A program made the position numbers and the translations under genes. A model generated the notes under the pieces. The model was not told where the DNA came from and did not search any database. It saw only the letters and a program-made list of their open reading frames with translations. Positions 1 through 13,870 of a stretch of DNA of 64,000 nt are shown here, in pieces. Each line of letters begins with the position of its first letter. Within the stretch, counting starts at the first letter, position 1. Source of the stretch: Altererythrobacter sp. BO-6 (GTDB lineage: Bacteria; Pseudomonadota; Alphaproteobacteria; Sphingomonadales; Sphingomonadaceae); NCBI RefSeq assembly GCF_011047315.1, contig NZ_CP049259.1, positions 1,488,001 through 1,552,000 on the forward strand. Reading direction: 5' to 3'.

Positions 1-464
1 GCCTGTCCGAAATGGCGGCGGCGGCGATTGCGGGCGCCAAGGGCAAGGTCGCGACCGGCGCGACCTATCTCGCCATGGAAGGCCCGCAATTCTCGACGCG
101 CGCGGAAAGCCGCATGTACCGCGAGTGGGGGGCGGATGTGATCGGGATGACCGCCATGCCCGAAGCCAAGCTCGCGCGCGAGGCGGAGCTGCCCTATGCG
201 CTGGTCGGCATGGTGACCGATTACGATTGCTGGCGTGAAGGCGAGGCGGTGGATGTGGCGCAGGTCGTCGCGCAGATGCAGCTGAACGGCAAGCTGGCGC
301 GCGACATGCTGGTGCGTTTCATCAATGCGCTGCCGGAAGCGCGCGAGCCTTCGCCGATCGATTTTGCGCTGGAAGATGCAGTGATCACCGCGCCCGACAA
401 GCACGATCCGGCGCTGCTGGCCAAGCTCGATGCGGTGGCCGGGAGGCTGCTGGCCGGGGGTTAA
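1..464 (+). CDS. mtnP: S-methyl-5'-thioadenosine phosphorylase, C-terminal part (5' end outside window)
   Basis: The protein is the C-terminal half of a purine nucleoside phosphorylase/MTAP-family enzyme, which splits methylthioadenosine with phosphate into adenine and methylthioribose-1-phosphate in methionine salvage. The frame is open from base 3 and so continues upstream of the window. Family motifs are visible: AMEGPQFSTRAESRMYR (substrate and phosphate pocket), the VIGMTAMPEAKLARE segment with the conserved Met-Thr, and the LVGMVTDYDCW loop with the purine-binding Asp. The TAA stop overlaps the stop codon of the next, convergent gene by a few bases (shared TTAA). Annotation is confident; only the N-terminal part is missing. 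Confidence 0.93.
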   Translation, partial: LSEMAAAAIAGAKGKVATGATYLAMEGPQFSTRAESRMYREWGADVIGMTAMPEAKLAREAELPYALVGMVTDYDCWREGEAVDVAQVVAQMQLNGKLARDMLVRFINALPEAREPSPIDFALEDAVITAPDKHDPALLAKLDAVAGRLLAGG

Positions 465-1096
465 TCCGCCTGCAGCTGCGCGAAGTGCTGCAGCACTTCG
501 GCCTTGCTCACCACGTCGCCATATTTGGCATTCATGTCGAACAGATTGGCCCGGTGCACGTCTTCGTGGCGATCGCCCACCGCTTCTTCCACCACGATCG
601 GGATGAAGCCGTGCTGGCACGCATCGACACAGGTCGCGCGCACGCAGCCGCTGGTGGACAAGCCGGTGATGACCAGGCTGTCATTGCCATTGGCTGTGAG
701 CGTGGAAGCGAGCGAGGTGCCAAAGAAGCTGCTGGCATATTGTTTGGAAATCACCAGCTCGTCGTCACGCGGCGCCAAGCCTTTGGACCAGGCGCCCATC
801 GGATGCCCGGCCACGAAATTGCGCAACGGCGCCACCTTCTGGGCGAACCGCCCGCCATCGATCATCGACGGATGGAAGCTGACATTGGTGTAGATGATCA
901 GGATGCCCGCCTTGCGCGCCGCCTCGACCAGTTCGATGGCTGATGCGAGCGCGTGTTCCACACCCGCATACAGCTCGCAGTTCCTATCGAAATAGGCTTC
1001 GACAAAATCGACCAGGATCAGGGCGGGCTTGCGCCCGAACCCGATCCTGCCTTCGAAGACGCCGGCATAATTTCCCTGTGCGCCTTGCGTGCTCAC
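461..1096 (-). CDS. Isochorismatase-family cysteine hydrolase, N-carbamoylsarcosine amidase-like
   Basis: A 211-residue cysteine amidohydrolase. The catalytic triad of the family is in place: Asp30 in LILVDF, Lys118 in ISKQYASSFFGT, and Cys151 in TGLSTSGCVRAT. The SGCVRAT context is typical of the N-carbamoylsarcosine amidase group rather than of true isochorismatases. I chose the GTG start at 1094-1096 because GAAAGGAG sits eight bases upstream; an earlier ATG would run into the end of the preceding gene. The gene lies 28 nt downstream of the TonB receptor, as the last gene of a minus-strand operon that starts at the racemase-like gene. With HyuA/HyuB nearby, a role in hydrolysing an N-carbamoyl intermediate is plausible (inference). 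Confidence 0.85.
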   Translation of the reverse strand: MSTQGAQGNYAGVFEGRIGFGRKPALILVDFVEAYFDRNCELYAGVEHALASAIELVEAARKAGILIIYTNVSFHPSMIDGGRFAQKVAPLRNFVAGHPMGAWSKGLAPRDDELVISKQYASSFFGTSLASTLTANGNDSLVITGLSTSGCVRATCVDACQHGFIPIVVEEAVGDRHEDVHRANLFDMNAKYGDVVSKAEVLQHFAQLQAD

Positions 1097-1124
1097 CCGA
1101 AGGGCTCCTTTCGCCCGGCTTGCG

Positions 1125-3659
1125 TCAGAACTTGTAGCCCACTTCGACACCGAAGCGGCGCAGGCCGCCCGGAGAGATGAACGACCCGCCGAATTCGACC
1201 GCCGTGATCACTTCGTTGAGGTATTTCTCGTTGAAGAGATTGTCCGCGAAGGCCGTGACTGACCAGGTATCGGTTTCAAGCCCGACGCGCACGTCCATCA
1301 CCGAGAACTCGTCACGCTGCGAAATCGAATAATCGGCATCGCCGACAAAGGCCGGCAACGCCAGCGCGGAGCCGGGCAGCAAGCCGCTGAACAGCGTGGG
1401 GTTGGGATCGTCCTGCAGTGTGTGGAACCACGTCGGGCCGGTTATGCGGTAATCGGCGCGTGCCACGAAATCGATCGTGTTGGTCACCGGCAGGTCAAGC
1501 TGGGTGCCGAGGTTGATCGTGTAGTCGGCCGTGTGCGGTGACTTGTTGCCGACGGTAACCGGGCGCGAGGCATTCTCCTTGATCTCGCTCTCGGTCACAT
1601 TGGCCGAACCGAACACGCTCCAGCCTGGCATGATCTCTGCGCTGAGGTTGAGCTCGGCGCCATAGACCTCGACTTCATCAATGTTGGACACCACGCGCAG
1701 CAGGCCAAAGCCCCCGACAAAGAACTCGAAGAACTGCATGTCGTCGATCGTGGTGTAGTAACCGGCGAGGTCGAAGTTGACTACGCCGCCGATTTCACCC
1801 TTGATCCCGGCTTCGAACGCGCTCGATTTTTCCTTGCGGTACTGGTCTTCGATCAGCACGTCGGTGCCGATGAACTGGTTGAACGCGGCATCGACGATCG
1901 CTGCCGAGCCCTGGTTGTTGAACCCGCCCGATTTGAAGCCGATCCCCCAGTTGGCATAGAGATTGACGTCATCGCTCAGCTCATAGCGCAGCGAAATCTT
2001 GGGCTGCAGCTGCTTGAACTTTTCGGACTGGCCGGCGATCGGCTGGACCACGCCACCCACTACCGTCTGCCCGGGGTTGATCGGCCCGCCGGTGATGGGA
2101 TCGAACACGGCGGGGACGAGGCTTGAAACCTTGCGGTCCTCGATATCGTAGCGCGCGGCAAGCCCGAGTTCGAGGCGGTCGCTCACTTCGAAGTCGGCCG
2201 ATGCGAACACCGCGTAGACATCGGTCGAGAAGTCATCGTGATAGAGCTGGGTGGTCGGGTTGGCCGAACCCGGCGCGTTGTAGAGCTGGCGGGTCACGCC
2301 ATTGCCCAGGTCCGCGCCCAGGCTGACGCCGACTTCGCGATCGATGTGCAGGTAATAGGCGCCGATTTGCCAATCGACATAGCCGTCACCATTCGATGCC
2401 AGCCGCACTTCCGCGCTGAAATCGCTCTGCTGGCGGATCTGGTATTGCGTGCCGTCGCAAGTGGTCGGGCTGTACGGCCCGAAGGTCGAGCCATTGGCCG
2501 GATCGAAAATGAACGGAATGGGGTTGTTGCCAATGAATGTCGGCGCATTGAGCGGGTAGCCGGTAAGCGCCGCCGTAGAGGCGAAACAGGCGGCGTTGGC
2601 GGCCGCGAGGTCGCCGGTCGCGGTACCGGTGAAGTCGAGGAAGCGTGCAAAGTCCGCCGAAGTCCCGTCTGCCGTCAGCGACTGGTCGACATCGCTGTAA
2701 AGTGCCCAGGCGGTCAGCGTGGCGCCTTCGAATTCATGCTCGATCTTGGCCGAGGCTTCGAAGGTCTGCTGCGCGTTGGTGGGCCGGATGTTCGAATAGA
2801 AATCGAACGGATGCTCGTTCACGTCCTCGAAGAAGGCCGGATCGACGGCTGCAAAATTGGGCAGGTGGAAGGCCGCGTTGAAGTTGATCGAGGCGCCCTT
2901 GAGATCGGCATAGCGCGCCTTGACGTCGAGCTCGGTCGCGGGGCCGAGATTGGCCACGAAGCGCCCGTCGATCGACCACACTTCCTGGTCGTCGATGGTT
3001 TTCGAGCCAAGGAAGGAATTGCGGTAGAAGCCATCCGTTGTCGAATAATTGCCCGAGATCACGAAGCCCGCCCCTTCGCCTACCGGCGCCGACACATAGG
3101 CGCTGGCGGAATAGGTCGAATCCTCGGCTGCGCTTACCTTGACCCCGCCTTCCAGCACATCGCCCGGCTTGAGCGTCTGGATCACGATCGCACCAGCTGC
3201 GGCGTTACGGCCGTAAAGGGCACCCTGCGGGCCTTTGAGGATTTCGATCTGGCGCAGCGTGCCCTGGTCCTGGTTGAGCTGTGCGGTATTGGTCTTGAGG
3301 ATCCCGTCAACCACCAGCGCAACCGAGCTTTCCGCGTCGCGCGCGCCATTGATCCCGCGGATGTTGATCTGCGTGTCGCCGGCCTCGGCAGTCCCGGTGA
3401 CGATGGTAACGCCCGGGGTCAGCTGGACGAATTCGTCAGCCGTCTGGATGCCGGTCTTCTCCAGTGTATCGGCGGTGAACACGGTGATCGCGGTCGGCAC
3501 CTCGGCCAACGTTTCGTTCTGGCGGCGGGCAGTGACGATGATCGCGTTGCTTTCCTCCGCCTCTTCGGCGCCAGCGGCATCCTGTGCCAGCACCGGCGTT
3601 GCAGCAAACAGGGCACCAAAGGCGGCGCCCGATGCGAGAATGGTCTTGAAGTTCCTCAT
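1125..3659 (-). CDS. TonB-dependent outer-membrane receptor
   Basis: An 844-residue TonB-dependent receptor. It has a signal peptide ending near AATPVLAQ (residue 26), a TonB box-like stretch (IIVTARRQ, about residues 40-47), a plug domain (about 50-165, with LVVDGI and the LKGPQGALYGRNAAAGAI motif) and a long beta-barrel ending in the usual aromatic terminus (VEVGYKF). It belongs to the sphingomonad receptor class that also imports carbohydrates and aromatics; the substrate cannot be read from sequence. AGGGAGAA before the ATG is a good ribosome binding site. It sits in the operon between the NTF2-like genes and the amidase-like hydrolase, so it probably imports the substrate of that pathway (inference). 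Confidence 0.93.
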   Translation of the reverse strand: MRNFKTILASGAAFGALFAATPVLAQDAAGAEEAEESNAIIVTARRQNETLAEVPTAITVFTADTLEKTGIQTADEFVQLTPGVTIVTGTAEAGDTQINIRGINGARDAESSVALVVDGILKTNTAQLNQDQGTLRQIEILKGPQGALYGRNAAAGAIVIQTLKPGDVLEGGVKVSAAEDSTYSASAYVSAPVGEGAGFVISGNYSTTDGFYRNSFLGSKTIDDQEVWSIDGRFVANLGPATELDVKARYADLKGASINFNAAFHLPNFAAVDPAFFEDVNEHPFDFYSNIRPTNAQQTFEASAKIEHEFEGATLTAWALYSDVDQSLTADGTSADFARFLDFTGTATGDLAAANAACFASTAALTGYPLNAPTFIGNNPIPFIFDPANGSTFGPYSPTTCDGTQYQIRQQSDFSAEVRLASNGDGYVDWQIGAYYLHIDREVGVSLGADLGNGVTRQLYNAPGSANPTTQLYHDDFSTDVYAVFASADFEVSDRLELGLAARYDIEDRKVSSLVPAVFDPITGGPINPGQTVVGGVVQPIAGQSEKFKQLQPKISLRYELSDDVNLYANWGIGFKSGGFNNQGSAAIVDAAFNQFIGTDVLIEDQYRKEKSSAFEAGIKGEIGGVVNFDLAGYYTTIDDMQFFEFFVGGFGLLRVVSNIDEVEVYGAELNLSAEIMPGWSVFGSANVTESEIKENASRPVTVGNKSPHTADYTINLGTQLDLPVTNTIDFVARADYRITGPTWFHTLQDDPNPTLFSGLLPGSALALPAFVGDADYSISQRDEFSVMDVRVGLETDTWSVTAFADNLFNEKYLNEVITAVEFGGSFISPGGLRRFGVEVGYKF

Positions 3660-3702
3660 TTTCAGTTCTCCCTGAACTGTGTGTTTGATTGGATCGGCGC
3701 TG

Positions 3703-4113
3703 TCAGGTCAGGACGTTGGCGCCGCTCATATAGACATAGACTTCCTGGAACTTCGGCCCGTCCGCCCCCGGACGCAGCCGCCAGAAATTGGTGTTGTAAA
3801 GCAAGGTCACATTGCCATCGGCATCGTGCAGCTCGGCAGTGAAACAGGCCGCGATGCGCCCGTTCGCTTCGTCCACTGTGCAAGTGAAATCGCGATGGAT
3901 GATGGTTTCGTAAGCGCCGAAGAAATCTTCGAACATGCGGCGGATTTCGCCTTTGCCCGCATGGCGGGTGAACGCGGTCTGGACGCAGAACAGCGCTTCA
4001 TCATGGAAACAGTCGAGCGTAGCCTCCATGTTCTTCGCATCGACATTGGCGAAGTATTTCTGCGTGGCGAAGTCGATCAGGGCGGCCCGGTCAAGCGTGG
4101 GTTCGTACTGCAT
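3703..4113 (-). CDS. NTF2-like (SnoaL/ketosteroid-isomerase fold) protein
   Basis: A 136-residue small alpha+beta-barrel protein of the NTF2-like superfamily. An N-terminal helix region (ALIDFATQKYFANVDAKN) is followed by ATLDCFHDEALF and strands ending in QEVYVYMSG. The superfamily includes isomerases, dehydratases, polyketide cyclases and non-catalytic binding proteins, so the reaction is not predictable. Its ATG overlaps the TGA of the preceding gene (TGATG), which signals translational coupling. It is a paralogue of that preceding gene: both end in VYVYMSG-x-N. There is no sign of a membrane segment or export signal, so it is probably cytoplasmic. Confidence 0.8.
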   Translation of the reverse strand: MQYEPTLDRAALIDFATQKYFANVDAKNMEATLDCFHDEALFCVQTAFTRHAGKGEIRRMFEDFFGAYETIIHRDFTCTVDEANGRIAACFTAELHDADGNVTLLYNTNFWRLRPGADGPKFQEVYVYMSGANVLT

Positions 4114-4545
4114 CAGGCGTCCCCTTCCTTCAGCAAGTTGTCGCCGCTCATATAGACATAGACGCGGTGGAACAGCCGGTCCTTCAGATAGAAGCGGTTG
4201 CAGTTTTCATAGCGCAGCTGATCGCTGCCATTGGGGGGTGATCAGCACGGTGAACTGGCTGCAGATCGCGTTCGTTTCCGGATCGGCGGTGTGGACGAAA
4301 TTGCCGTGCCAGATCTGCTCGAAATCGGCGAACAGCTTGACGAACATCGCCCGGATCGCCTCGCGCCCTTCATGCACCGTATTGCTGGTGACTTCGGTCA
4401 GCACCGCATCGGGCGTGAAGCAGTTGAGCACCTTGTCGAGGTTCTTGTTGTCGACCCCGTCGAAATAGCGCTTGGTCACAATGTCGATGTAAAAGGGATA
4501 GGGCAGCGGCGCCTGTCCGAATCCGCCTTCGCTCCAATCGCTCAT
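4113..4545 (-). pseudogene. NTF2-like protein, frameshifted (second copy of the pair)
   Basis: The frame begins with MSDWSEGGFGQ at 4545, its ATG overlapping the racemase-like gene's TGA (TGATG). It is open to a premature stop near 4207. If one base is dropped from the six-C run (coding strand; + strand G run 4233-4238), the frame continues through NGSDQLRYENCNRFYLKD to HRVYVYMSGDN and stops at a TGA that overlaps the next gene's ATG. The restored protein is about 143 residues and matches its neighbour in fold and C-terminus. The clean junction on both sides after correction argues that the extra C is a sequencing error or very recent mutation. Function as for the neighbouring NTF2-like gene. 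Confidence 0.8.
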
Positions 4546-5288
4546 CAATACCACCCCTTTCGGATGTCTGCGTGCTTGGGCACTTCGGGTGCGGGAAAGG
4601 CCTTCTTCGAATGGGTCAGGCCCAGCTCGATCTGCGTTTCGAGCAGCTTGTAGGCAACCTGCCCCGGGTTCAGCACCGGGATCGGCAGCTGGCTGTCGAG
4701 ATAGGCGGCGCTCTGGTGCATGGTGGTGGAGCCGAGCACGATGACATCGGCCCCGTCTTCCTCCATCGCCTTTTCCGCTTCGGCCTTGAGCTTGCCGAAT
4801 ACCACCTCTTCCTTGCCTTCCAGCAACTCGGTGACATCGGGCCGCGTGTCGATCGACCGCAGCGAGGCGACCCGATCCCACCAGCCATATTCGGTCAGCG
4901 TCTTTTCATAGAGCGGGAACCACTCGGGCCACATGGTCAGCACAGTGAATTTCTTGCCCAGCATCATCGCCATCGCGAAGCTGGCCTCTCCCGGGCCGAC
5001 CACCGGTATGCTGAGCGCGCTGCGCAAGGCACGCATGCCGCTGTCGCTGACCGTGTCGATCAGCACGCCGGCATAGCCTTCTTCCTCGGCGGTGATCCCG
5101 GCCTGGAACACGGTCCAGTCCATCAGCAGCGTATCGTGATAGCTGTCACCCAGCGCCGCGCCCCAGCGTACCGCTTCGAATTCGGGCTTGAAACCGGGGC
5201 GCACGAAATGCTCCGGCAATTGCTCGGCCCGGTTGGCAACGCCAGCCTCATCCATCGGGATCGGCACGATGACCTTGATACGGTTCAT
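4545..5288 (-). CDS. Asp/Glu/hydantoin racemase-superfamily protein without any cysteine
   Basis: A 247-residue two-domain protein of the Asp/Glu racemase superfamily. It shows the two pseudo-symmetric halves: GVLIDTVSDSGMRAL (about 75-89) with IPVVGPGEASF, and DVIVLGSTTM (181-190) with IPVLNPGQ. Known racemases and arylmalonate decarboxylase carry catalytic Cys in these loops; here the aligned residues are Thr79 and Ser187, and the whole protein has no Cys. It is therefore unlikely to work by the usual two-thiol mechanism. I chose the ATG at 5288 (MNRIKVIVP) because family members begin at this strand and the upstream extension has no family sequence. It is first in the minus-strand operon, behind a GntR-type palindrome. 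Confidence 0.8.
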   Translation of the reverse strand: MNRIKVIVPIPMDEAGVANRAEQLPEHFVRPGFKPEFEAVRWGAALGDSYHDTLLMDWTVFQAGITAEEEGYAGVLIDTVSDSGMRALRSALSIPVVGPGEASFAMAMMLGKKFTVLTMWPEWFPLYEKTLTEYGWWDRVASLRSIDTRPDVTELLEGKEEVVFGKLKAEAEKAMEEDGADVIVLGSTTMHQSAAYLDSQLPIPVLNPGQVAYKLLETQIELGLTHSKKAFPAPEVPKHADIRKGWY

Positions 5289-5325
5289 GTCACCCAAATC
5301 CGCTGCTCCACTTGACGTTCCCACT

Positions 5326-5337
5326 ATTGTATACAAT
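5326..5337. promoter_or_regulatory. Palindromic operator, FadR/FCD-type GntR class
   Basis: ATTGTATACAAT is a perfect 12-nt palindrome 38 nt upstream of the racemase-like start. It fits the published pattern for FadR-subfamily regulators (t.GTa...tAC.a). A TTGACG (minus strand, 5350-5345) just upstream on the operon strand could be part of a -35 element, so binding would probably block the promoter. The 10-nt core is repeated at 7989-7998. The neighbouring GntR gene at 5527 is the natural candidate to bind it (inference). Confidence 0.65.
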
Positions 5338-5526
5338 TTATACCCGTCAAGCGAATTCCCGTTCCCTGTCATTCTTGATGGTTAGGCTGTGATATTTTGG
5401 TGGCGGAAAGTTTTGCAGCGAGGGGTCCATGGCGTATCCGAAGCGGTTCATGATCCCTGCCTCCGCCATCGATTGCACCAATTGCACAGCGGTTGTGGTC
5501 TGCCTTTGCGACATGGATGATCGCCG

Positions 5527-6165
5527 ATGAGCCGCGCGTCCGACCATGCCTATGACAAGATCCGTGCGCATCTGCTGAGCGGCGCGGTCAAACCGGGCGA
5601 ACAGCTGACAGAAGACCAGCTGGCGCAGGTGACCGGTGTCAGCCGCACCCCAGTGCGCGAGGCAGTGCGGCGCCTCGAGGGCGAAATGCTGCTGGTGCGC
5701 AGCGAATCCAAGCGCATATTCGTGGCCGACTGGAGCCGCGACGACATCGACGAGATGTTCACCCTGCGCCAGATGCTGGAAGGCCACGCCGCCGAACGCG
5801 CAGCGCGGCGCCTCAAACGCGACGAGATCGACCGCCTCGAAGCGGTCAATCGCGAGCTGCACGATGCGGTCGATCATGATCCGCCCGATGTCGCCCGCTT
5901 CCTCGATGCCAACCGCACCTTTCACGAAATCATCACCGAGGCAGCGCATTCGCCGCGGCTGGGCCAGGTGCTGGCGATGCTGGTGGAGGCGCCGGTGGTG
6001 CTGCGCACCGCGCGCAGCTATTCGGTCGAGGACCTCAAGCAGTCGGCGCGCGACCATGACGAGCTGATCGCCGCGTTCCGCGCGCATGACCCGGACTGGG
6101 CGCGGGCGGTAATGGGCAGCCATTTGCGCCGCGCGTTCCACACCTTTGCCGGATCGGCGGAGTAG
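5527..6165 (+). CDS. GntR-family transcriptional regulator, FCD (FadR) subfamily
   Basis: A 212-residue regulator. An N-terminal winged helix (residues 1-70) contains the signature VKPGEQLTEDQLAQ and GVSRTPVREAVRRLE, and a helical FCD ligand domain (about 75-205) contains DEMFTLRQMLEGHAAE, DANRTFHEIITEAA and the RDHDELIAAF segment. FCD domains commonly bind carboxylates or metal-carboxylate complexes through Asp/His residues, and the D-x3-H and H-x-H-type positions are present here (NRTFHE, ARDHDE). The gene is divergent from the racemase-like operon, with an operator palindrome in the shared upstream region. It probably represses the uptake operon and the CoA-transferase/hydantoinase genes in the absence of a pathway acid (inference). 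Confidence 0.9.
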   Translation: MSRASDHAYDKIRAHLLSGAVKPGEQLTEDQLAQVTGVSRTPVREAVRRLEGEMLLVRSESKRIFVADWSRDDIDEMFTLRQMLEGHAAERAARRLKRDEIDRLEAVNRELHDAVDHDPPDVARFLDANRTFHEIITEAAHSPRLGQVLAMLVEAPVVLRTARSYSVEDLKQSARDHDELIAAFRAHDPDWARAVMGSHLRRAFHTFAGSAE

Positions 6166-6209
6166 GATTGCGTCAGGCCCGTTTGTGGGTGGTTAGGCGA
6201 GTGGCGGCT

Positions 6210-6545
6210 TTAGGCGCTCAATAGGCCGCGATCGGACCATACGTCCTCATGCCCGGGGGCTACCATGAACCTCCATCCCGGCGGCAGGGCCAAGAATGGA
6301 AGGACAGCCGGGCAATGATCGGTAAGATGATAGAGGTGCAATGGTTTGAAGAAGTCAGGGTCCTCTGACCAATCACCAGCCCATATGAACCAGCCCGTTG
6401 TTCCACTCTCTGGCCTATGACGCAGGCCATGAAGTGGAAGTTCGCCACGCAAGGCGCTCTCAGAAACGCCTACCTTATGGGTGCCGTCCGTTGGCGTGAA
6501 ACCAGCGCCATACCGCTTACAAATGTCTCGCTGCTCTTCTTCCAT
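6210..6545 (-). CDS. Small protein resembling Imm33/DUF2185-type immunity proteins
   Basis: A 111-residue soluble protein. The C-terminal half, TGWFIWAGDWSEDPDFFKPL then HLTDHCPAVLPFLALPPGWRF and EDVW, resembles proteins annotated as Imm33 or DUF2185; I recognise this by pattern only. The N-terminal 30 residues (MEEEQRDICKRYGAGF) look like a short helix. It sits alone between the GntR gene and the CoA-transferase and has somewhat lower GC than both. No toxin gene is adjacent. The start codon lacks a strong ribosome binding site, so a slightly different start is possible. The gene call is fairly secure because the coding pattern is good; the immunity role is weakly supported. Confidence 0.55.
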   Translation of the reverse strand: MEEEQRDICKRYGAGFTPTDGTHKVGVSESALRGELPLHGLRHRPESGTTGWFIWAGDWSEDPDFFKPLHLYHLTDHCPAVLPFLALPPGWRFMVAPGHEDVWSDRGLLSA

Positions 6546-6666
6546 ACGTTCAATGTATCGCGGTAGTCTGCCGGCGGCTATCGGGCAGTCGATTTTTCAT
6601 CGTGAACGGCAACATTGGGGTCGTAAGCCGCCATTCATCGAATCCAGGACCGCTGTAGCCTGCGGG

Positions 6667-7848
6667 TCAGATAATCCCGCGCTCTGCCAGGTCAGCGCGT
6701 TTCGCCGAATCCATCCCCAGCAGTTCGCCGTAGATCTCTTCATTGTGCTGACCCAGCTCGGGGCCGACCCAGTCGACATGCCCCGGCGTTTCGGACAGCT
6801 TCGGCGCGACGTTCTGCATCTTGAAGTTCGCATGCTTCGGGTGCGGCAGCTCGATGATCGCGTCGCGTGCGGCGAAGTGGGGATCGGCCAGCATTTCAGG
6901 CGCGCGGTAGATATTGCCCGCCGGAACGCCGTGTTCCTCGCATTTCGCCAGCACTTCCAGGCTGGTGAATTGCTTGGTCCATTCGCCGATCAGGTCGTCA
7001 AGCTCCTGCTGGCGCTGTCCGCGCGCGACATGGCTGTTGTAGCGCGGATCGTCGCCCAATTCGGGCACGCCCATCATCTCCGCCATCCGCTTCCACACGC
7101 TGTCCTGGTTGCCCGCGACGAGCACACTGCCGTCCTTCGTGGGATAGACATTGGAAGGCGCGATCTTGGGCAGGATCGATCCGGTCCGCTCGCGGATATG
7201 GCCTGTCACCGTATATTCGGGAATGGTCGATTCCATCATCGCCAGCACTGCTTCGTAGATCGCCGAATCCACCACCTGGCCCTTGCCGGTCTTGTGCCGA
7301 TGGTTGAGCGCCATCAGCGCGCCGAGGCAGGCATAGGTCGCCGCCAGCGGATCCCCGATCGACAGGCCTGCCCGGCTCGGCGGCCGGTCCGGCTCGCCCG
7401 CGATATAGCGCATGCCGCCCATCGCCTCGCCAATCCCGCCATAGCCGGCGCGGGGGCTGTAAGGCCCGCTCTGGCCATAGCCGGAGACGCGGATCATGAT
7501 CAGCGCTTCGTTGATCGCATGCAGCTGTTCCCAGCCCAGGTTCCAGCGCTCAAGCGTGCCGGGGCGGAAATTCTCCAGCAGGAAATCGGCCTTGGCGGCG
7601 AGCTGGCGGACGATGTCCTGCCCTTCCTTCTCGCGCAGGTTCAGCGTGATCGACTTCTTGTTGCGCGCGACGACGGAGAACCACAGCGGGATGCCCTGTC
7701 CCCAATTGCGCATCGCATCGCCCACCTTGGGCGGTTCGATCTTGATCACTTCGGCGCCGTGATCGGCCAACAACTGCCCGCAAAACGGCCCTGCGATCAG
7801 TTGCCCCATCTCGATCAGCCGCAGTCCGTCGAGCGCGCCTTGTGCCAT
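6667..7848 (-). CDS. Class III (CaiB/BaiF) CoA-transferase
   Basis: A 393-residue family III CoA-transferase, which moves CoA between carboxylic acids through an aspartyl-CoA thioester. The catalytic Asp is Asp166 in GLSIGDPLAATYA. Other family features are IEMGQLIAGPFCGQLLADHG at the N-terminus, KIEPP, the LLENFRPG loop and ASGYGQ-like VSGYGQSGPY. The ATG at 7848 is preceded by AGAGGA on the coding strand; upstream frame sequence is not family-like. It is divergent from the lyase gene and shares the operator at 7989-7998. Together with that lyase it likely activates a pathway acid as its CoA ester before cleavage (inference); the substrate acid is unknown. Confidence 0.9.
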   Translation of the reverse strand: MAQGALDGLRLIEMGQLIAGPFCGQLLADHGAEVIKIEPPKVGDAMRNWGQGIPLWFSVVARNKKSITLNLREKEGQDIVRQLAAKADFLLENFRPGTLERWNLGWEQLHAINEALIMIRVSGYGQSGPYSPRAGYGGIGEAMGGMRYIAGEPDRPPSRAGLSIGDPLAATYACLGALMALNHRHKTGKGQVVDSAIYEAVLAMMESTIPEYTVTGHIRERTGSILPKIAPSNVYPTKDGSVLVAGNQDSVWKRMAEMMGVPELGDDPRYNSHVARGQRQQELDDLIGEWTKQFTSLEVLAKCEEHGVPAGNIYRAPEMLADPHFAARDAIIELPHPKHANFKMQNVAPKLSETPGHVDWVGPELGQHNEEIYGELLGMDSAKRADLAERGII

Positions 7849-7988
7849 GATTTCGGGATCCTCTTGCTTTGATAAACGCAGTAGAGTCACTGCAGCCCAA
7901 TATAGTGCGATGTAACCAAAACATAGCGCCGGACAGCCCGCCGTACGCCATGCGATTCCGCGTCGCCCTATAAACGCGGCATTTGCAT

Positions 7989-7998
7989 TTGTATACAA
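7989..7998. promoter_or_regulatory. Second copy of the GntR-type operator
   Basis: TTGTATACAA, a perfect 10-nt palindrome, lies between the divergent CoA-transferase (start 7848) and lyase (start 8046) genes, 47 nt upstream of the lyase start. It is identical to the core of the palindrome at 5326-5337, and both are flanked by an A/T run (ATTT on the right). Its placement allows control of both directions. Shared sites in front of two transcription units next to a GntR gene are the main evidence for a single regulon. Confidence 0.65.
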
Positions 7999-8045
7999 TT
8001 TGCGTATCAGGCGCGGACCCCCACGAATTCTCGCAGAGCGATTCC

Positions 8046-8954
8046 ATGGCTGCCGAAAGCATCGAACTGGTAGAAGTCGGCCCGCGCGACGGGCTGCAGA
8101 ACGAGCCCGACATCATCTCGACCGAGGTGAAGCTGGCGCTGATCGACCGCATGCTCGATTACGGCGCGCGGCGGCTGGAAGTGGCGAGCTTCGTCCACCC
8201 GCAGCGGGTGCCGCAAATGGCCGATGCCGAAGCCGTCATCGCCGGCCTGCCCGACCGTGCCGACGCGACCTATATCGGGCTGACGCTCAACAAGCGCGGC
8301 GTGCTGCGCGGTGTCGCCACACGCGACGGCGGGAAACGCGGGATCGACCAGGTCGGCTGTGTACTCGTCGCCAGCGATACCTTCGGCCAAAAGAACCAGG
8401 GCCAGACCATCGCCGAAGGCATCGCCGAAAATCGTGACATGATCCGCTTTGCCAAGGCCGAGGGGATGCGCGCGCAGATCACCATCAGCGCCGCTTTCGG
8501 TTGCCCTTTCGAAGGCACGGTGAAGCCCGAAACCGTGCTCGCCATCGCCGAGGAAATGGCGGCGGAAGAGCCCGAAGAGATCGCGCTGGCGGACACGATC
8601 GGCGTCGGCACCCCGGCGCAGGTGAGCGAGCTGTTCGCAAAGCTCGGCGAACTGCTCGAAGGGCGGATACCGATGCGGGCGCATTTTCATAATACGCGCG
8701 GCACCGGCATCGCCAATGCCTGGGCGGCGTATCAGGCTGGTGTGCGGATCTTCGATGCCTCGCTCGGCGGGCTCGGCGGTTGCCCCTTCGCCCCCAAGGC
8801 GACCGGAAATATCGCGACCGAGGACCTTATCTACATGATGGAGCGTTCAGGCATCGACAGCGGCGTCGATCTGGATGCCGCCATCGCCACCAACCGCTGG
8901 TTCGCTGAAAGGCTGGGCCGCGAATTGCCATCGATGGTCGCGCGCGCGGCCTGA
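8046..8954 (+). CDS. Hydroxymethylglutaryl-CoA lyase-like enzyme (DRE-TIM family)
   Basis: A 302-residue TIM-barrel lyase. The metal and catalytic residues of HMG-CoA lyases are present: Arg14-Asp15 in PRDGLQNE, His213 and His215 in HFHNT, and Cys246 in the GGLGGCPFA loop, which is the HMGL signature. The usual HFHDTYG is HFHNTRG here, so the substrate is probably not HMG-CoA itself but another 3-hydroxyacyl-CoA (inference). The ATG at 8046 was chosen over an upstream ATG because family homology starts there and the operator lies between the two. It begins a three-gene operon with hyuA (24 nt downstream) and hyuB. Confidence 0.88.
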   Translation: MAAESIELVEVGPRDGLQNEPDIISTEVKLALIDRMLDYGARRLEVASFVHPQRVPQMADAEAVIAGLPDRADATYIGLTLNKRGVLRGVATRDGGKRGIDQVGCVLVASDTFGQKNQGQTIAEGIAENRDMIRFAKAEGMRAQITISAAFGCPFEGTVKPETVLAIAEEMAAEEPEEIALADTIGVGTPAQVSELFAKLGELLEGRIPMRAHFHNTRGTGIANAWAAYQAGVRIFDASLGGLGGCPFAPKATGNIATEDLIYMMERSGIDSGVDLDAAIATNRWFAERLGRELPSMVARAA

Positions 8955-8978
8955 CGAAACCGAAGCCACGGAGAGACT

Positions 8979-11048
8979 ATGACTTACAGGCTGGGCGTCG
9001 ATGTGGGGGGAACCTTCACCGATCTGCTGCTGTTCGACGAGACGAGCGGGAAATTCTGGCGCCACAAGACGCCGTCGACCCCGCATGACAGCTCCGAGGG
9101 CATCCTCAACGGGGTGAAGGCGATCACCGCCGAAGCCGGAGTGTCCGCCAGTGACATCTCCTATTTCCTCCACGGCACGACCGTCGCGACCAATGCGGTG
9201 CTGGAAGGCAAGGGCGCCAAGGTCGGCCTCGTCACCACCGAGGGCTATCGCGATATCATGCAGATCGCGCGCAGCTTCGTGCCGGGCGGCCTTGCGGCAT
9301 GGATCGTGTGGCCCAAGCCGACGCCGCTGGCACATCTGGAGGACACGGTAGACGTGCCCGGCCGTATGGGCGCCGATGGCAAGGAAGTGCGCCCGCTGGA
9401 CGAAGATGCCGTGCGCGCCGCGCTGCGCAAGCTCAAGGCTAACGGCATCGAAGCGCTGACCGTCAGCCTGATAAACGCTTACGTCAACGGCGCGCATGAG
9501 AAGCGCATCGGCGAAATCGCAGCCGAGGAGCTGCCCGGTATCCCCGTCTCGCTCAGCCATGAAGTGCTGCCCGAAATGCAGGAATACGAGCGCACGCTCT
9601 CGACCGTCGCCAATGCGGCGGTGCGCCCGGTGGTGAGCAAATATGTCTCCAACCTGCGCACCAAGCTGGAAGACGAGGGGCTGCAGGGCAAACTCTCGCT
9701 GCTGCGCTCGGACGGCGGGTTGATGAGCAGCCAGAAGGCCGAGGAGCATCCGGTCAACATCCTGATGTCCGGCCCCGCCGGCGGGGTTACCGGCGCGCTG
9801 TGGGTGGCGAAGAACGCCGGTTTCGAGAATATCCTGACGCTCGACGTGGGCGGCACCTCGACCGACGTGGCGCTGATCGAAGGGCTGGAGGCGCGCCGCG
9901 TACGCACCACCGAAGTCGGGCACCTTTCGGTGCGTGCCTCGGCGCTCGACGTGAAGACTGTGGGCGCGGGCGGCGGCTCGATCGCCCACGTTCCGGAACT
10001 GACCAAGGCGCTGCGCGTCGGGCCCGAAAGCGCGGGCGCGGTGCCCGGCCCCGTCGCCTATGGCAAGGGCGGCGCGCTGCCGACTGTGACCGACGCCAAT
10101 GTCGTGCTCGGCTACCTCCCCGAAAACCTCCTGGGCGGCAGCTTCAAGCTCGACCGCGAAGGCGCCAAGAAGGCGGTGCAAACCGTGGCTGACGCGCTGG
10201 GCGTGGGGCTGATGGAGGCCGCGCGCGGGATCATCGATATCGTCAATGAGAACATGTTCGGCGCGCTGCGCATGATCAGCGTGCAGCAGGGCTATGACCC
10301 GCGCGACTTCGCGCTAATGGGCTTCGGCGGGGCGGGCCCGCTGCATGTCAACGCCGTCGCGCGGCTGATGGGCAGCTGGCCCGCGATCTCGCCCGTCTCC
10401 CCCGGCGTGCTGTGCGCGCTGGGCGATGCGACGACGCGGATGCGCACCGAAACCGCGCGCAGCTTCTCGCGCCTGGCGAAAGACACCACCATCGCTGACC
10501 TCGAAGCCGTGCTGGACGAGATGGCAGCGCAGACCCGCGGCGAGCTGCTCGCCGATGGCGTGCCGGAAGACCAGATCACCACGCAGTTCGAAGTCGATAT
10601 CCGCTATGCCGGGCAGGCCTTCGAAGTGCCGCTGACGATCGACAAGCAAGTGCTGGAGGCGGACGGGATCGCAGGCATACTGGCGCGCTTCGACGAGGAG
10701 CACCTGCGGCTCTTCACCTTCAACATGGACACCCCGCACGAAATCGTGAACCTGCGCGCGGTGGCGCTGGGCCAGGCACCCGACTTGCCCGCCGCCGAAT
10801 TGCCCAAGGGTGATGGCGATCCTTCCGCCGCCAAGATCCGCGACCACACGCTGTGGATGGACGGCAAGGAACAAGCCGCAGTGATCTATGACCGAAGCCG
10901 CTTGCGCCAGGGTGACGTGATCCCCGGCCCGGCGATCATCACCGAAATGGATTCGACCACGCTGGTCGAGAGCGGCTGCGTGGCCACGGTCGACAAGGTC
11001 GGCAATATTCTCATCAACCCCCAAGAAACCAAGAGCGCGGAGGGCTAA
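8979..11048 (+). CDS. hyuA: Hydantoinase/oxoprolinase subunit A (HyuA-type, ATP-dependent)
   Basis: A 689-residue subunit of the hydantoinase/5-oxoprolinase/acetone carboxylase superfamily. These enzymes use ATP to phosphorylate and open a cyclic amide or to carboxylate a ketone. The N-terminal Hydant_A_N domain starts with YRLGVDVGGTFTDLLLFD, the phosphate loop, and has FLHGTTVATNAVLE. The central hydantoinase_A domain carries SGPAGGVTGA and LDVGGTSTDVALI, a second actin-like phosphate motif, then VGAGGGSIA. The C-terminal domain follows (about 500-680). GGAGAG precedes the start. It partners with hyuB three bases downstream. Candidate substrates are hydantoins, N-methylhydantoin, 5-oxoproline or lactams; sequence alone does not decide. 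Confidence 0.92.
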   Translation: MTYRLGVDVGGTFTDLLLFDETSGKFWRHKTPSTPHDSSEGILNGVKAITAEAGVSASDISYFLHGTTVATNAVLEGKGAKVGLVTTEGYRDIMQIARSFVPGGLAAWIVWPKPTPLAHLEDTVDVPGRMGADGKEVRPLDEDAVRAALRKLKANGIEALTVSLINAYVNGAHEKRIGEIAAEELPGIPVSLSHEVLPEMQEYERTLSTVANAAVRPVVSKYVSNLRTKLEDEGLQGKLSLLRSDGGLMSSQKAEEHPVNILMSGPAGGVTGALWVAKNAGFENILTLDVGGTSTDVALIEGLEARRVRTTEVGHLSVRASALDVKTVGAGGGSIAHVPELTKALRVGPESAGAVPGPVAYGKGGALPTVTDANVVLGYLPENLLGGSFKLDREGAKKAVQTVADALGVGLMEAARGIIDIVNENMFGALRMISVQQGYDPRDFALMGFGGAGPLHVNAVARLMGSWPAISPVSPGVLCALGDATTRMRTETARSFSRLAKDTTIADLEAVLDEMAAQTRGELLADGVPEDQITTQFEVDIRYAGQAFEVPLTIDKQVLEADGIAGILARFDEEHLRLFTFNMDTPHEIVNLRAVALGQAPDLPAAELPKGDGDPSAAKIRDHTLWMDGKEQAAVIYDRSRLRQGDVIPGPAIITEMDSTTLVESGCVATVDKVGNILINPQETKSAEG

Positions 11049-11051
11049 GCG

Positions 11052-12917
11052 ATGCCGGCACAAATCATCGAAACCAATCCGACGCCCTTCAAGAAGGTCC
11101 CGATCGATCCGGTCACGCTCGACATCATCGAGAACGCGCTGCGCAATGCCCGCATCGAGATGGACGCGACGCTGGTACGCACCGCGATGAGCCCCGGCAT
11201 CCGCGAGCAGGGCGACGCCTTCCCGCTGATCGCCGACCCCGATGGCAAGATGATCGTCGGCCAGTTCGGCAGCTTCATCGGCGGCTTCCTCAAGGGCTTT
11301 GACGGCACGCTGGAAGATGGCGACATGATCTTCCTCAGCGATCCCTATTCCTGCGAGGGCGCCATCAGCCACTCGAACGACTGGCTGGTGCTGCTGCCCG
11401 TGTTCAAGGACGGCCGCCTGATCGCCTACACCGCGATGTTCGGCCACCAGAGCGACATCGGCGGCATGGTGCCCGGATCGATGCCGATCGGCGCCAGCTC
11501 AATCTTCGAGGAAGGGGTGCGTATCCCGCCGGTGAAGATCTGGAAGAAGGGCGAATACAATGACGACCTGATGAAGCTCGTCATGCACCAGACCCGCAAG
11601 CCCGACTGGTGCCAGGCAGACTTGAACGCGCTGATCGCATCGTGCCGCGTTGCCGCGCGGCGCGTGGTCGAAATGGCCGAGCGTTTCGGCGACGACGTCT
11701 ATGTTTCGGCGACGCAGGAACTGCTCGATCGCAACTATCGCGCGATGAAGGCGCTGATCGGCATGGCGGTGGCCGAAGAGCCGGTCAGCTTCGAGGATTA
11801 CATCTGCGATGACGGCAAGGGCTACGGCCCCTACAAGATCAAATGCACCATGTGGCGCGAGGGCGACAAGGTGATCCTCGATTTCGACGGCACCGATCCG
11901 CAGAGCGCCGCCTCGATCAATTTCTATCTCAATGAGAACATGTTCAAGATGTTCTTCGGGATCTACATGATCATGGTGTTCGACCCGCAGATCCTGTTCA
12001 ATGACGGGTTCTACGATCTGATCGACGTGCGCATCCCCGAAGGATCGCTGCTGAAGCCGAAGTTCCCCGCCGCGCTGTCAGGCCGTACCCACGCGCTGGG
12101 GCGGATCTTCGACATCCTCGGCGGGTTGCTGGGCCAGAAGACCCCCGAATTCCTCAACGCGGCCGGGTTCAGCTCGTCGCCGCACCTGTTCTATTCGGGC
12201 TGGGACCGGCGAGGTGGCAAGGAACGTGAATGGTTCCAGCTGTTCCAGATCGGCTTCGGCGGGATTCCGGGCCGGCCGCTGGGCGACGGGCCTGACGGGC
12301 ATTCGCTGTGGCCGGGCTTCACCAATGTCCCCAACGAGTTCCTCGAGCGCTATTTCCCCTTGCGGATCGAGCGCTATGCGACCGAGCCGGACAGCGGCGG
12401 CGCCGGCCTGCACCGCGGCGGCAATGGCATCCGCATGACCTATCGCTTCCTCGCTGACGGGCACATCGCGATCCATGACGACCGCTGGTTCGTGCCTCCC
12501 TGGGGCGTCAACGGCGGGCATCCCGGCATGCGCGCCAAGAAGGTGATCGAACGCGCCGACGGCAGCACCGAAATCGTCGGCAACAAGGTGGAAGATGTGC
12601 CGGTGAAGGAAGGAGACCTGCTCCACTTCATCACCTGGGGCGGCGGCGGCTGGGGCGACCCGCTCGAACGCGATCCGCAGGTCGTGGGCCTCGAAATCCG
12701 GCAGGGTCTTGTCACAGCCGAGGGCGCGCGCGCCTATGGCGTGGTGGCCGATGCGGATGGCACGGTCGATGCCGCAGCCACCGACAAGCTGCGTAGCGAA
12801 ATGAAGGCCGCGCGCGGCGAATTGCCGCTGTTCGATTACGGGCCGGGCATCGAGGCTTTGCGTGCCAATTGCGAAGCCGAAACCGGCCTGCCTGCACCGC
12901 TCCAGCCCGTGTGGTAA
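11052..12917 (+). CDS. hyuB: Hydantoinase/oxoprolinase subunit B (HyuB-type)
   Basis: A 621-residue Hydantoinase_B-family subunit. It starts with DPVTLDIIENALRNARIEMD, the usual family opening, followed by LVRTAMSPGIREQGDAF, the DPYSCEGAISHSNDW metal-site region and GHQSDIGGMVPGSM with the conserved His-Gln-x-Asp. The C-terminal part has PDSGGAGLHRGGNG and GGGGWGDPLERDP, both typical. It is translationally coupled to hyuA: the hyuA stop is three bases before its ATG and the GGAGG ribosome site lies inside hyuA. A hairpin follows the stop, so the lyase-hyuA-hyuB unit probably ends here. It forms the catalytic complex with HyuA. Confidence 0.92.
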   Translation: MPAQIIETNPTPFKKVPIDPVTLDIIENALRNARIEMDATLVRTAMSPGIREQGDAFPLIADPDGKMIVGQFGSFIGGFLKGFDGTLEDGDMIFLSDPYSCEGAISHSNDWLVLLPVFKDGRLIAYTAMFGHQSDIGGMVPGSMPIGASSIFEEGVRIPPVKIWKKGEYNDDLMKLVMHQTRKPDWCQADLNALIASCRVAARRVVEMAERFGDDVYVSATQELLDRNYRAMKALIGMAVAEEPVSFEDYICDDGKGYGPYKIKCTMWREGDKVILDFDGTDPQSAASINFYLNENMFKMFFGIYMIMVFDPQILFNDGFYDLIDVRIPEGSLLKPKFPAALSGRTHALGRIFDILGGLLGQKTPEFLNAAGFSSSPHLFYSGWDRRGGKEREWFQLFQIGFGGIPGRPLGDGPDGHSLWPGFTNVPNEFLERYFPLRIERYATEPDSGGAGLHRGGNGIRMTYRFLADGHIAIHDDRWFVPPWGVNGGHPGMRAKKVIERADGSTEIVGNKVEDVPVKEGDLLHFITWGGGGWGDPLERDPQVVGLEIRQGLVTAEGARAYGVVADADGTVDAAATDKLRSEMKAARGELPLFDYGPGIEALRANCEAETGLPAPLQPVW

Positions 12918-12991: not shown

Positions 12992-13840
12992 ATGAACGAT
13001 CCGGACATCATCACGGGGGGCGAAAGCGAATCGCTGACCTCGCCCGAGATCTATGTCGAGGTCGCGCGCGAGGGGATCGAGGAGATGGGCCGGCCCTCGG
13101 CCTCGCTGTTCTGGTCGGCCATTGCGGCAGGCTTCCTGATCTCTTTCTCGCTGCTGCTGAAAGCAGTACTGCATCACGAGACCGCCGATCTTCCGGCGGG
13201 CCATGCGATCGAAAGCCTGGGTTACACCATCGGCTTTATCCTGGTGATCTATTGCCGCTTGCAGCTGTTCACCGAGAACACGATCACCCCGGTCCTGCCG
13301 ACCATCGCCAACCCGTCCGCGCGCAATGTCGGCAATCTCGGGCGGGTGTGGGGCATCAGCCTGCTGGCCAATTTCATCGGTACCGCGATCATGGCCTTGA
13401 TGTTTGCCAAAACGCCGATGGTGCCGCCTGAAACGCTGCAATCGATGCTCTCGATCAGCCAGAAAGTGGCCGACCTCAGCTTCATGGAATCGCTGGTGAA
13501 AGGGCTGCCGTCAGGCCTGCTGATCGCGGCGCTGGTGTGGATGCGGCCCAGCTCGGGCGAAAGCTTCCTCGGGCTGATCCTGCTGGTGACCTATGTCATC
13601 GCCGTGGGCGGCTTCACCCATGTGGTGGTCGGATCGTGCGAGATCTTCCTGTTGGCCTGGACCGGCCAGGGCGCGCTCGGCGAAATGCTGCTGACCAATG
13701 TGCTCCCCACGCTGATCGGCAATGTGATCGGCGGAACCGTGCTGTTCGCGCTGATCGCCTGGGCGCAGATCCGGCGCGAGCTGAAGGCGACCGTTAGCCG
13801 CTTGCATGACGAAGCGGACGCTGGCAGCCGCCGCATGTAA
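12992..13840 (+). CDS. Formate/nitrite transporter (FNT) family membrane protein, YfdC-like
   Basis: A 282-residue inner-membrane protein with about six hydrophobic helices (for example SLFWSAIAAGFLISFSLLL, IGFILVIYC, LLANFIGTAIMALMF, FLGLILLVTYVIAVGGF and the last near 250-265). The LFTENT motif after the second helix and the paired FTHVVVGS motif are FNT features, with the two re-entrant loops related by pseudo-symmetry. FNT pentamers conduct small monovalent anions such as formate, nitrite or lactate with proton. The N-terminal cytosolic helix (SPEIYVEVAREGIEEMGRPS) is typical of the YfdC subgroup. It lies downstream of the hyuB hairpin, so membership in the catabolic regulon is uncertain. 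Confidence 0.85.
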   Translation: MNDPDIITGGESESLTSPEIYVEVAREGIEEMGRPSASLFWSAIAAGFLISFSLLLKAVLHHETADLPAGHAIESLGYTIGFILVIYCRLQLFTENTITPVLPTIANPSARNVGNLGRVWGISLLANFIGTAIMALMFAKTPMVPPETLQSMLSISQKVADLSFMESLVKGLPSGLLIAALVWMRPSSGESFLGLILLVTYVIAVGGFTHVVVGSCEIFLLAWTGQGALGEMLLTNVLPTLIGNVIGGTVLFALIAWAQIRRELKATVSRLHDEADAGSRRM

Positions 13841-13870
13841 CGAAGCGATATCCGTGGGAGGACCAGAGAG

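Follow-up and report, generated by a model that had tools for sequence, protein, structure and literature searches.

A candidate GntR-controlled catabolic regulon joining ring-opening, CoA-transferase and lyase genes in Altererythrobacter sp. BO-6

Creatinine-type degradation runs through an ATP-dependent N-methylhydantoinase and then an N-carbamoylsarcosine amidohydrolase, and this combination of HyuAB with an amidase suffices without coenzyme A (CoA) chemistry. Here we describe a cluster of ten neighboring genes at positions 461-12917 of a 64,000-nucleotide stretch of contig NZ_CP049259.1 from Altererythrobacter sp. BO-6 (the whole stretch is called the window below). The cluster likewise encodes HyuA and HyuB (together HyuAB) and an isochorismatase-fold amidase, but adds a TonB-dependent outer-membrane receptor, a class III CoA-transferase and a lyase of the hydroxymethylglutaryl-CoA (HMG-CoA) lyase type. 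Its genes form a minus-strand operon of five, a gene for a GntR/FCD-family regulator, a minus-strand CoA-transferase gene and a plus-strand operon of lyase, HyuA and HyuB; an initial annotation of this DNA had listed the same ten genes, and each was found at the position and strand it gave, with Pfam families that agree. We propose, with a probability of about 0.6, that the cluster is a local, GntR-controlled and receptor-fed catabolic regulon. Its substrate would be a cyclic imide or resemble a hydantoin, and it would undergo ring opening, deamidation, CoA activation and retro-aldol cleavage. The cluster appears to be a new combination of known parts, for which such a pathway is plausible.

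Enzyme families of the cluster

The closest described ring-opening enzymes include CapAB of Pseudomonas jessenii, a member of the same family of two-subunit ATP-dependent hydrolases, and we took motif definitions from the paper describing it (PMC8453981). As in CapAB, the ATP and metal motifs are conserved. HyuA, the ATP-dependent ring-opening subunit (8979-11048, plus strand; PF01968, PF05378 and PF19278, Hydantoinase_A), carries the phosphate and adenosine motifs DxGGTxTD, DxGGT and GxxPGP at positions 8, 289 and 353, here as DVGGTFTD, DVGGT and GAVPGP. HyuB (11052-12917, plus strand; PF02538, Hydantoinase_B, 492.4 bits) has the Asp-His-Asp-His metal site at the motif level, with HSND at 107 and HQSDIGG at 132; the spacing equals that of H99, D102 and H124 in CapB, and the first Asp is placed only by its context, SPGIREQGD. 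Against the NCBIfam models, HyuA reaches 556 bits with the caprolactamase alpha subunit versus 334 and 179 bits with the acetophenone carboxylase subunits, and HyuB reaches 220 bits with caprolactamase versus 131 bits with acetophenone carboxylase. HyuAB is therefore best described, by its sequence, as a putative hydrolase-type member of the ATP-dependent hydantoinase/oxoprolinase/lactamase family. Caprolactam itself is an unlikely substrate and was set aside, because both subunits fall far below the NCBIfam equivalog cut-offs for caprolactamase (556 and 220 of 1000 bits) and because HyuB lacks the adjacent cysteine pair of CapB.

Among solved structures, the best match of HyuA is N-methylhydantoinase (E 1.3e-143), whose chain of 1288 residues is probably a fusion, whereas HyuA and HyuB are separate genes in the cluster. 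The amidase (461-1150, minus strand; PF00857, 117.9 bits) is most similar to N-carbamoylsarcosine amidohydrolase (26st, E 6.4e-41). Its isochorismatase domain contains the Asp, Lys and SGC nucleophile motifs and includes the SGCVRAT motif by which the initial annotation had typed it. The best-scoring solved relatives of the two enzymes support, at this level of comparison, the pairing of HyuAB with an N-carbamoylsarcosine amidase that had been suggested there. The open reading frame of a relative (L023) begins LSTQGAQ, and the BO-6 amidase may start near 1096. In Sphingomonas wittichii RW1 under salt, transposon hits fell in a hydantoinase/oxoprolinase gene (PMC4219479), a result that we could not connect with the present cluster.

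The closest described counterpart of the remaining two enzymes is the combination of succinate-hydroxymethylglutarate CoA-transferase with HMG-CoA lyase, and the cluster has both enzyme types side by side. The CoA-transferase (6667-7848, minus strand) belongs to family III, the CaiB family (PF02515, CoA_transf_3, 414.7 bits), and resembles enzymes for formyl-CoA/oxalate, succinate, glutarate and hydroxymethylglutarate; succinate-hydroxymethylglutarate CoA-transferase (9br7) ranks third among its solved relatives (E 3.3e-60). However, its best NCBIfam model, SucGlutTfsCaiB, gives 297.6 of 750 bits, well below the succinate-glutarate equivalog cut-off. The lyase (8046-8954, start at about 8046, plus strand; HMGL-like) passes the cut-off of the HMG-CoA-lyase subfamily (NCBIfam PRK05692, 297.6 versus 246 bits) and carries GGCPFAPKATGN, which fits the GGCP[FY]AP signature of HMG-CoA lyases. 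When a transferase and a lyase of these families work together, the first activates a branched hydroxy-dicarboxylate and the second cleaves the product, leaving an acyl-CoA and an oxo acid; the reaction order that we propose is based on this family knowledge. The initial annotation had considered a hydroxy-acid skeleton for the substrate, and the CoA-transferase/HMG-CoA-lyase end of the cluster would fit one.

A shared palindrome and its distribution

Two exact copies of the palindrome TTGTATACAA lie in front of the cluster's operons. One, at 5327-5336, is upstream of the minus-strand start of the racemase-fold gene at 5288 and is a candidate operator of the minus operon, perhaps also of the GntR/FCD regulator gene (5527-6165, plus strand; PF00392, 61 bits; PF07729, 91.1 bits). 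The other, at 7989-7998, lies between the starts of the CoA-transferase gene (7848) and the lyase gene (about 8046) and is a candidate operator of the lyase-HyuA-HyuB operon, possibly also of the CoA-transferase. The identical pair reported in the initial annotation was recovered, and the genome scan suggested there gave two exact sites in 3,035,715 bases, both in the cluster. When up to one mismatch was allowed, the window still held two matches versus 0.16 expected, a number that 1 of 100 shuffles reached. The first site overlaps a weak promoter-like element on the minus strand (TTGACG-16-AATAGT, 9 of 12 positions matching). The ATG at 5288 is likely the true start of the racemase-fold gene, because the first-listed open reading frame start, at 5372, is upstream of the palindrome.

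The position of the site is conserved in related loci. A search with the racemase-fold protein gave 99 relatives; in the loci of the best 80 (1.457 Mb in total), we counted 125 exact copies versus 0.27 expected from composition. When all 160 palindromic ten-mers with this composition were ranked, TTGTATACAA came first (125 versus 12 for the runner-up). The 200 bases upstream of the racemase-fold gene account for 63 copies, and those upstream of the lyase gene for 55; by their coordinates, the other seven are also at the fronts of these operons, namely before a TonB receptor gene that precedes the racemase gene (L076, L080 and L083), before the CoA-transferase gene (L047 and L082), between the lyase and amidase genes (L077) and upstream of HyuA at a locus where no lyase was matched (L088). 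In the 79 readable racemase upstream regions, the site is exact in 63, one base off in seven, two off in six and four off in three, and in the 70 lyase upstream regions it is exact in 55, one base off in eight and three to five off in seven. Both upstream sites are exact in 54 of 70 loci.

Whole genomes gave a similar association within the genus. We compared 61 genomes, BO-6 included, of which 37 are from the same genus and 24 are other relatives. All 29 HyuB-positive genomes of the genus carry one to three sites, whereas seven of the eight HyuB-negative ones carry none (Fisher p 8e-7, kinship ignored). The eighth (G033) is 77% complete and has a short contig with the receptor, GntR, lyase and HyuA genes, part of HyuB and both sites. 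Among the matches listed for 18 genomes of the genus, 32 of 35 sites are at the cluster or its fragments. The regulator has both a GntR and an FCD domain, and its link to TTGTATACAA is the conserved co-occurrence of gene and site; on this basis we propose that the sites are operators of this protein.

Core genes, insert and related clusters

Co-conservation was counted in 64 of the named loci, each of at least 15 kb and all picked through the racemase gene (present in 64 of 64 by construction), with per-gene minimum identity thresholds of 38-60%. The GntR and NTF2-like a genes are present in 64 loci, the genes for the CoA-transferase, HyuA, HyuB, the receptor (1125-3659, minus strand; PF00593 and PF07715) and NTF2-like b in 63 each, the lyase gene in 61 and the amidase gene in 47; 45 loci have the full set of ten. 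At one of the 64 loci (L101), NTF2-like a is about 10 kb off on the opposite strand. There are at least five gene orders, the commonest in 22, 14 and 12 loci, so the linkage survives rearrangement. The idea of a single regulon, put forward in the initial annotation, passed this comparison, with eight genes besides the racemase and amidase genes at 61-64 of 64, varying gene orders and retained palindromes. The gene set and both sites are also found together in genome G400 (locus L139), which is from the same class but another order and whose GntR protein is 45% identical.

Identities in the 64 loci fall into two groups for three of the enzymes: 57-63% and 72-95% for the CoA-transferase, 44-53% and 62-95% for the amidase, and 54-65% and 72-96% for the lyase, which also has one distant match at 36%. 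Homologues of the same family have probably been swapped at one locus in each case, and because they appear to be replaced in kind, the function seems to be needed.

The racemase-fold and NTF2-like genes had been listed as equal members of the cluster, a view that the genome comparison does not bear out. HyuB occurs in 42 of the 61 genomes, and a racemase-fold gene of at least 60% identity occurs in 17, all of them HyuB-positive (chance 4.7e-4, kinship ignored). For 20 of the 25 HyuB-positive genomes below this threshold we took the HyuB locus; two of these genomes (G039 and G045) have distant racemase paralogues only. The 20 loci retain the genes for the CoA-transferase (18), GntR protein (17), lyase (17), receptor (15) and amidase (14), and 18 of them hold 27 exact palindromes. 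Because these loci keep the core and its sites, the core of the predicted regulon comprises the genes for the GntR protein, TonB receptor, HyuAB, CoA-transferase and lyase, to which the amidase is usually added, and the racemase-fold and NTF2-like genes are, by the same comparison, an optional insert.

The most novel piece of the cluster is the clade of cysteine-free racemase-fold proteins. The BO-6 protein (4545-5288, minus strand; Asp_Glu_race, PF01177) has the fold and family profile of Asp/Glu/hydantoin racemases; it is modelled with the allantoin-racemase fold, and its best fold matches are allantoin and hydantoin racemases. Unlike the racemases that share this fold (5lfd, 3qvk and 2eq5), it lacks the catalytic cysteine pair, which is replaced by T79 and S187, and it has no cysteine anywhere in its sequence, as the initial annotation had remarked. 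We collected 131 distinct sequences, of which 124, the BO-6 protein included, are at least 40% identical; none of the 124 holds either catalytic cysteine, with Thr or Ser at the one position and Ser at the other. An ordinary two-thiol racemase is ruled out by the absence of these residues. Arylmalonate decarboxylase was also rejected, as the protein lacks the proton-donating Cys188 and the LMGTSLSF and ILLSCGGL motifs of that enzyme.

Two NTF2-like genes accompany it. NTF2-like a (3703-4113, minus strand; SnoaL-like, PF12680, 27.5 bits) has one weak but plausible solved relative, 3b8l (E 0.0007). The SnoaL/NTF2-like gene b (frame 4207-4545, gene about 4113-4545, minus strand) is frameshifted in BO-6: relative to its nearest counterpart, in L023, it has a one-base insertion at a short single-base run near 4225-4235, and the frame ends early at 4207. 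In the 80 loci the protein has 125-144 residues in 74, no match in five and a weak match elsewhere in one (L101). The frameshift may be a sequencing error.

The polysaccharide-deacetylase family includes cofactor-free allantoinases. Of 16 neighborhoods of racemase relatives at 45-59% identity, seven (L144, L145, L150, L151, L152, L159 and L160) contain HyuAB, isochorismatase-type hydrolases or polysaccharide-deacetylase-family proteins. The tie of the racemase clade to cyclic-amide chemistry, as judged from gene neighborhoods, is frequent and not universal, and it does not name a substrate. Two or three tandem cysteine-free racemase-fold genes stand near two isochorismatase-fold genes in L145, L151 and L152, and by eye an acyl-activating enzyme is also present in L145 and L151; these clusters probably represent a different pathway with the same fold.

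Related clusters occur outside the group as well. In genomes G612 and G799, from other classes, and in G198, from another order of the same class, the HyuAB, lyase, CoA-transferase, racemase-fold and NTF2-like a genes are together, and an amidase joins them in G612 and G198. In these two genomes, the lyase and transferase were recognized by similarity to those of loci L188 and L189. The receptor query found no match in the G612 and G198 clusters, both of which contain DUF1302, MMPL and YCF48-like genes, with DUF1329 in G612 as well. Genes of the LeuC and LeuD families are in the G612 cluster and one of the LeuD family is in that of G799, each with a PrpR-type regulator; because another LeuC-sized member, with a higher score, lies elsewhere in the G612 genome, the cluster copy looks like an extra one. 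BO-6 itself contains another catabolic cluster, at about 986-1006 kb (L188, 986000-1005900), with LeuC, an HMG-CoA-lyase-type lyase, a CoA-transferase, isochorismatase-fold and polysaccharide-deacetylase-family proteins and methyltransferase-like genes. By eye, an aldehyde dehydrogenase gene is also there. In the genome of L031 (G801), the counterpart of this second cluster adjoins the first.

Several features were noted beside the cluster. Between the GntR and CoA-transferase genes, a stretch of about 500 bases (6166-6666) contains a 111-residue minus-strand open reading frame (6210-6545) and is possibly a remnant gene. A gene of the formate/nitrite-transporter family follows HyuB at 12992-14848, likewise in G014 (L213), and several relatives have a quinone-oxidoreductase-like gene close to HyuB. 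Pairs of glutathione-S-transferase-like genes stand beside the core cluster in L139, L154 and L210 (by Pfam for L154, by eye for the others).

Pathway reading and alternatives

In the pathway that we propose, the GntR/FCD protein would bind TTGTATACAA before both target operons and repress them until a carboxylate intermediate appears. The TonB receptor would import a scarce or bulky substrate, and HyuAB would open its cyclic amide, imide or hydantoin-like, at the expense of ATP. The isochorismatase-fold amidase would then strip the nitrogen from the amide or carbamoyl group set free by ring opening. The class III CoA-transferase would load CoA onto the resulting branched hydroxy-dicarboxylate, and the HMG-CoA-lyase-type enzyme would split the CoA ester into an acyl-CoA and an oxo acid. 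An accessory step that broadens the substrate range, probably on the ring compound before HyuAB acts, may be provided by the cysteine-free racemase-fold protein together with the two NTF2-like proteins.

Several results weigh against this pathway and its regulation. The sampled genomes are related to one another, and their counts therefore lack independence. In 17 of the 64 loci, the fetched stretch contains no amidase gene. The locus of a culturable relative, Parasphingorhabdus marina DSM 22363 (L037), likewise has the core, the insert and the two palindromes, with the amidase missing from the stretch taken. When the receptor's ligand was sought among solved relatives, only weak plug-region matches were found, with no clue to the substrate. 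Nine of the 16 racemase neighborhoods (L141, L142, L146-L149 and L156-L158) gave no HyuAB or amidase match, and for L157 and L158 the annotation agrees that neither is there. As for the palindrome, we found no sigma-70-like promoter at the second site (7989-7998), and three of the 35 sites in the genus (one each in G004, G011 and G023) are off the cluster, with no query gene within about 5 kb. Outside the genus, the motif is less specific, because seven of 11 HyuB-negative genomes there have one to five sites; two of 13 HyuB-positive ones have none. Two of the 20 racemase-negative loci (L211 and L213) are without an exact site; L213 is a cut contig, and the site of its genome sits on another cluster fragment. 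L211 has, next to the core cluster, a TRAP-type transporter, an amidohydrolase and a second CoA-transferase, and no exact palindrome.

A literature search of titles and abstracts, with preprints and most subscription papers outside its scope, returned no account of the gene set, the palindrome or the racemase clade. An unlikely alternative is that one regulator controls two separate functions: HyuAB and the amidase would serve hydantoin or ureide salvage and yield an amino acid, and the CoA-transferase and lyase would form an organic-acid module with no relation to it. The best solved relatives of HyuAB and the amidase and the self-sufficiency of creatinine-type degradation speak for such a division, but the lyase shares an operon with HyuAB, both it and the CoA-transferase remain linked to HyuAB despite several rearrangements and in different families, and the parallel BO-6 cluster again pairs isochorismatase-type and polysaccharide-deacetylase-family proteins with a lyase and CoA-transferase of its own. 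It is less probable still that HyuAB is an ATP-dependent ketone carboxylase whose carboxylated product is degraded by the CoA-transferase and lyase, with no nitrogen ring involved. DUF1302, MMPL and DUF1329 are a set associated with hydrophobic compounds, and the presence of the first two in the G612 and G198 clusters and of the third in G612 would suit this idea, as would the relationship of HyuAB-type proteins to acetone and acetophenone carboxylases noted in PMC8453981; the NCBIfam scores, however, favor caprolactamase over acetophenone carboxylase for both subunits, the same paper gives the known carboxylases extra subunits, and an amidase stands beside HyuAB in 47 of 64 loci.

Two further alternatives concern the ligand and the regulator. 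IaaCE works in indoleacetate degradation together with a class III CoA-transferase. This enzyme, from Aromatoleum, is hydantoinase-like and was aligned with CapAB (PMC8453981), so the substrate might be an oxindole, for example dioxindole-3-acetic acid, which arises by auxin oxidation. In that case HyuAB would open the lactam, the CoA-transferase would activate the acetyl arm and the lyase would free acetyl-CoA; the ring-opened product would be a tertiary hydroxy acid that would suit an HMG-CoA-type lyase. We consider this improbable, as the amidase is left without a task, a literature search on auxin degradation and these enzymes gave no paper with this set, and no indole oxygenase or anthranilate gene was recognized in the fetched loci, although no systematic search for them was made. 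Most improbable is that another, perhaps global, regulator binds the palindrome instead of the adjacent GntR protein. Stray sites in relatives, more of them outside the genus, point that way, but the whole BO-6 genome has just two sites, the HyuB-negative genomes of the genus are without them except for G033 with its cluster fragment, and all 64 loci include the GntR gene.

Within the cyclic-amide regulon that we favor, a narrower proposal can be made, which we regard as doubtful: the substrates would be cyclic imides with branches, hydroxyl groups or unsaturation, such as maleimide-type fragments of tetrapyrrole breakdown, the racemase-fold enzyme would act, in a new way, on the imide ring before HyuAB, and the skeleton would end as an acyl-CoA and a 2-oxo acid. 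The LeuC/LeuD genes of G612, the LeuD gene of G799, the PrpR-type regulator and the co-occurrence of LeuC with lyase and CoA-transferase in the second BO-6 cluster count for it, whereas the absence of an extra LeuC from 21 of 29 HyuB-positive genomes of the genus and the lack of a tie to phototrophy count against it. Dependence on an extra LeuC was rejected (8 of 29 HyuB-positive versus 1 of 8 HyuB-negative genomes of the genus); with so few copies a separate hydratase is not required, and this scarcity favors a substrate already bearing a hydroxyl. Turnover of the cell's own bacteriochlorophyll was likewise ruled out, since the reaction-centre family PF00124 is found in 24 of 29 HyuB-positive versus 6 of 8 HyuB-negative genomes of the genus; of the 24 other relatives, 13 have HyuB but only 2 have this family.

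Many sphingomonads are aquatic. A pathway so widely kept among them, with an adjacent regulator gene and a candidate operator, would offer an entry to a little-known use of organic nitrogen. The cysteine-free racemase-fold clade offers a clearly delimited starting point for new enzyme chemistry, and if the regulator binds both sites, these would provide a ready reporter for discovery of the substrate.

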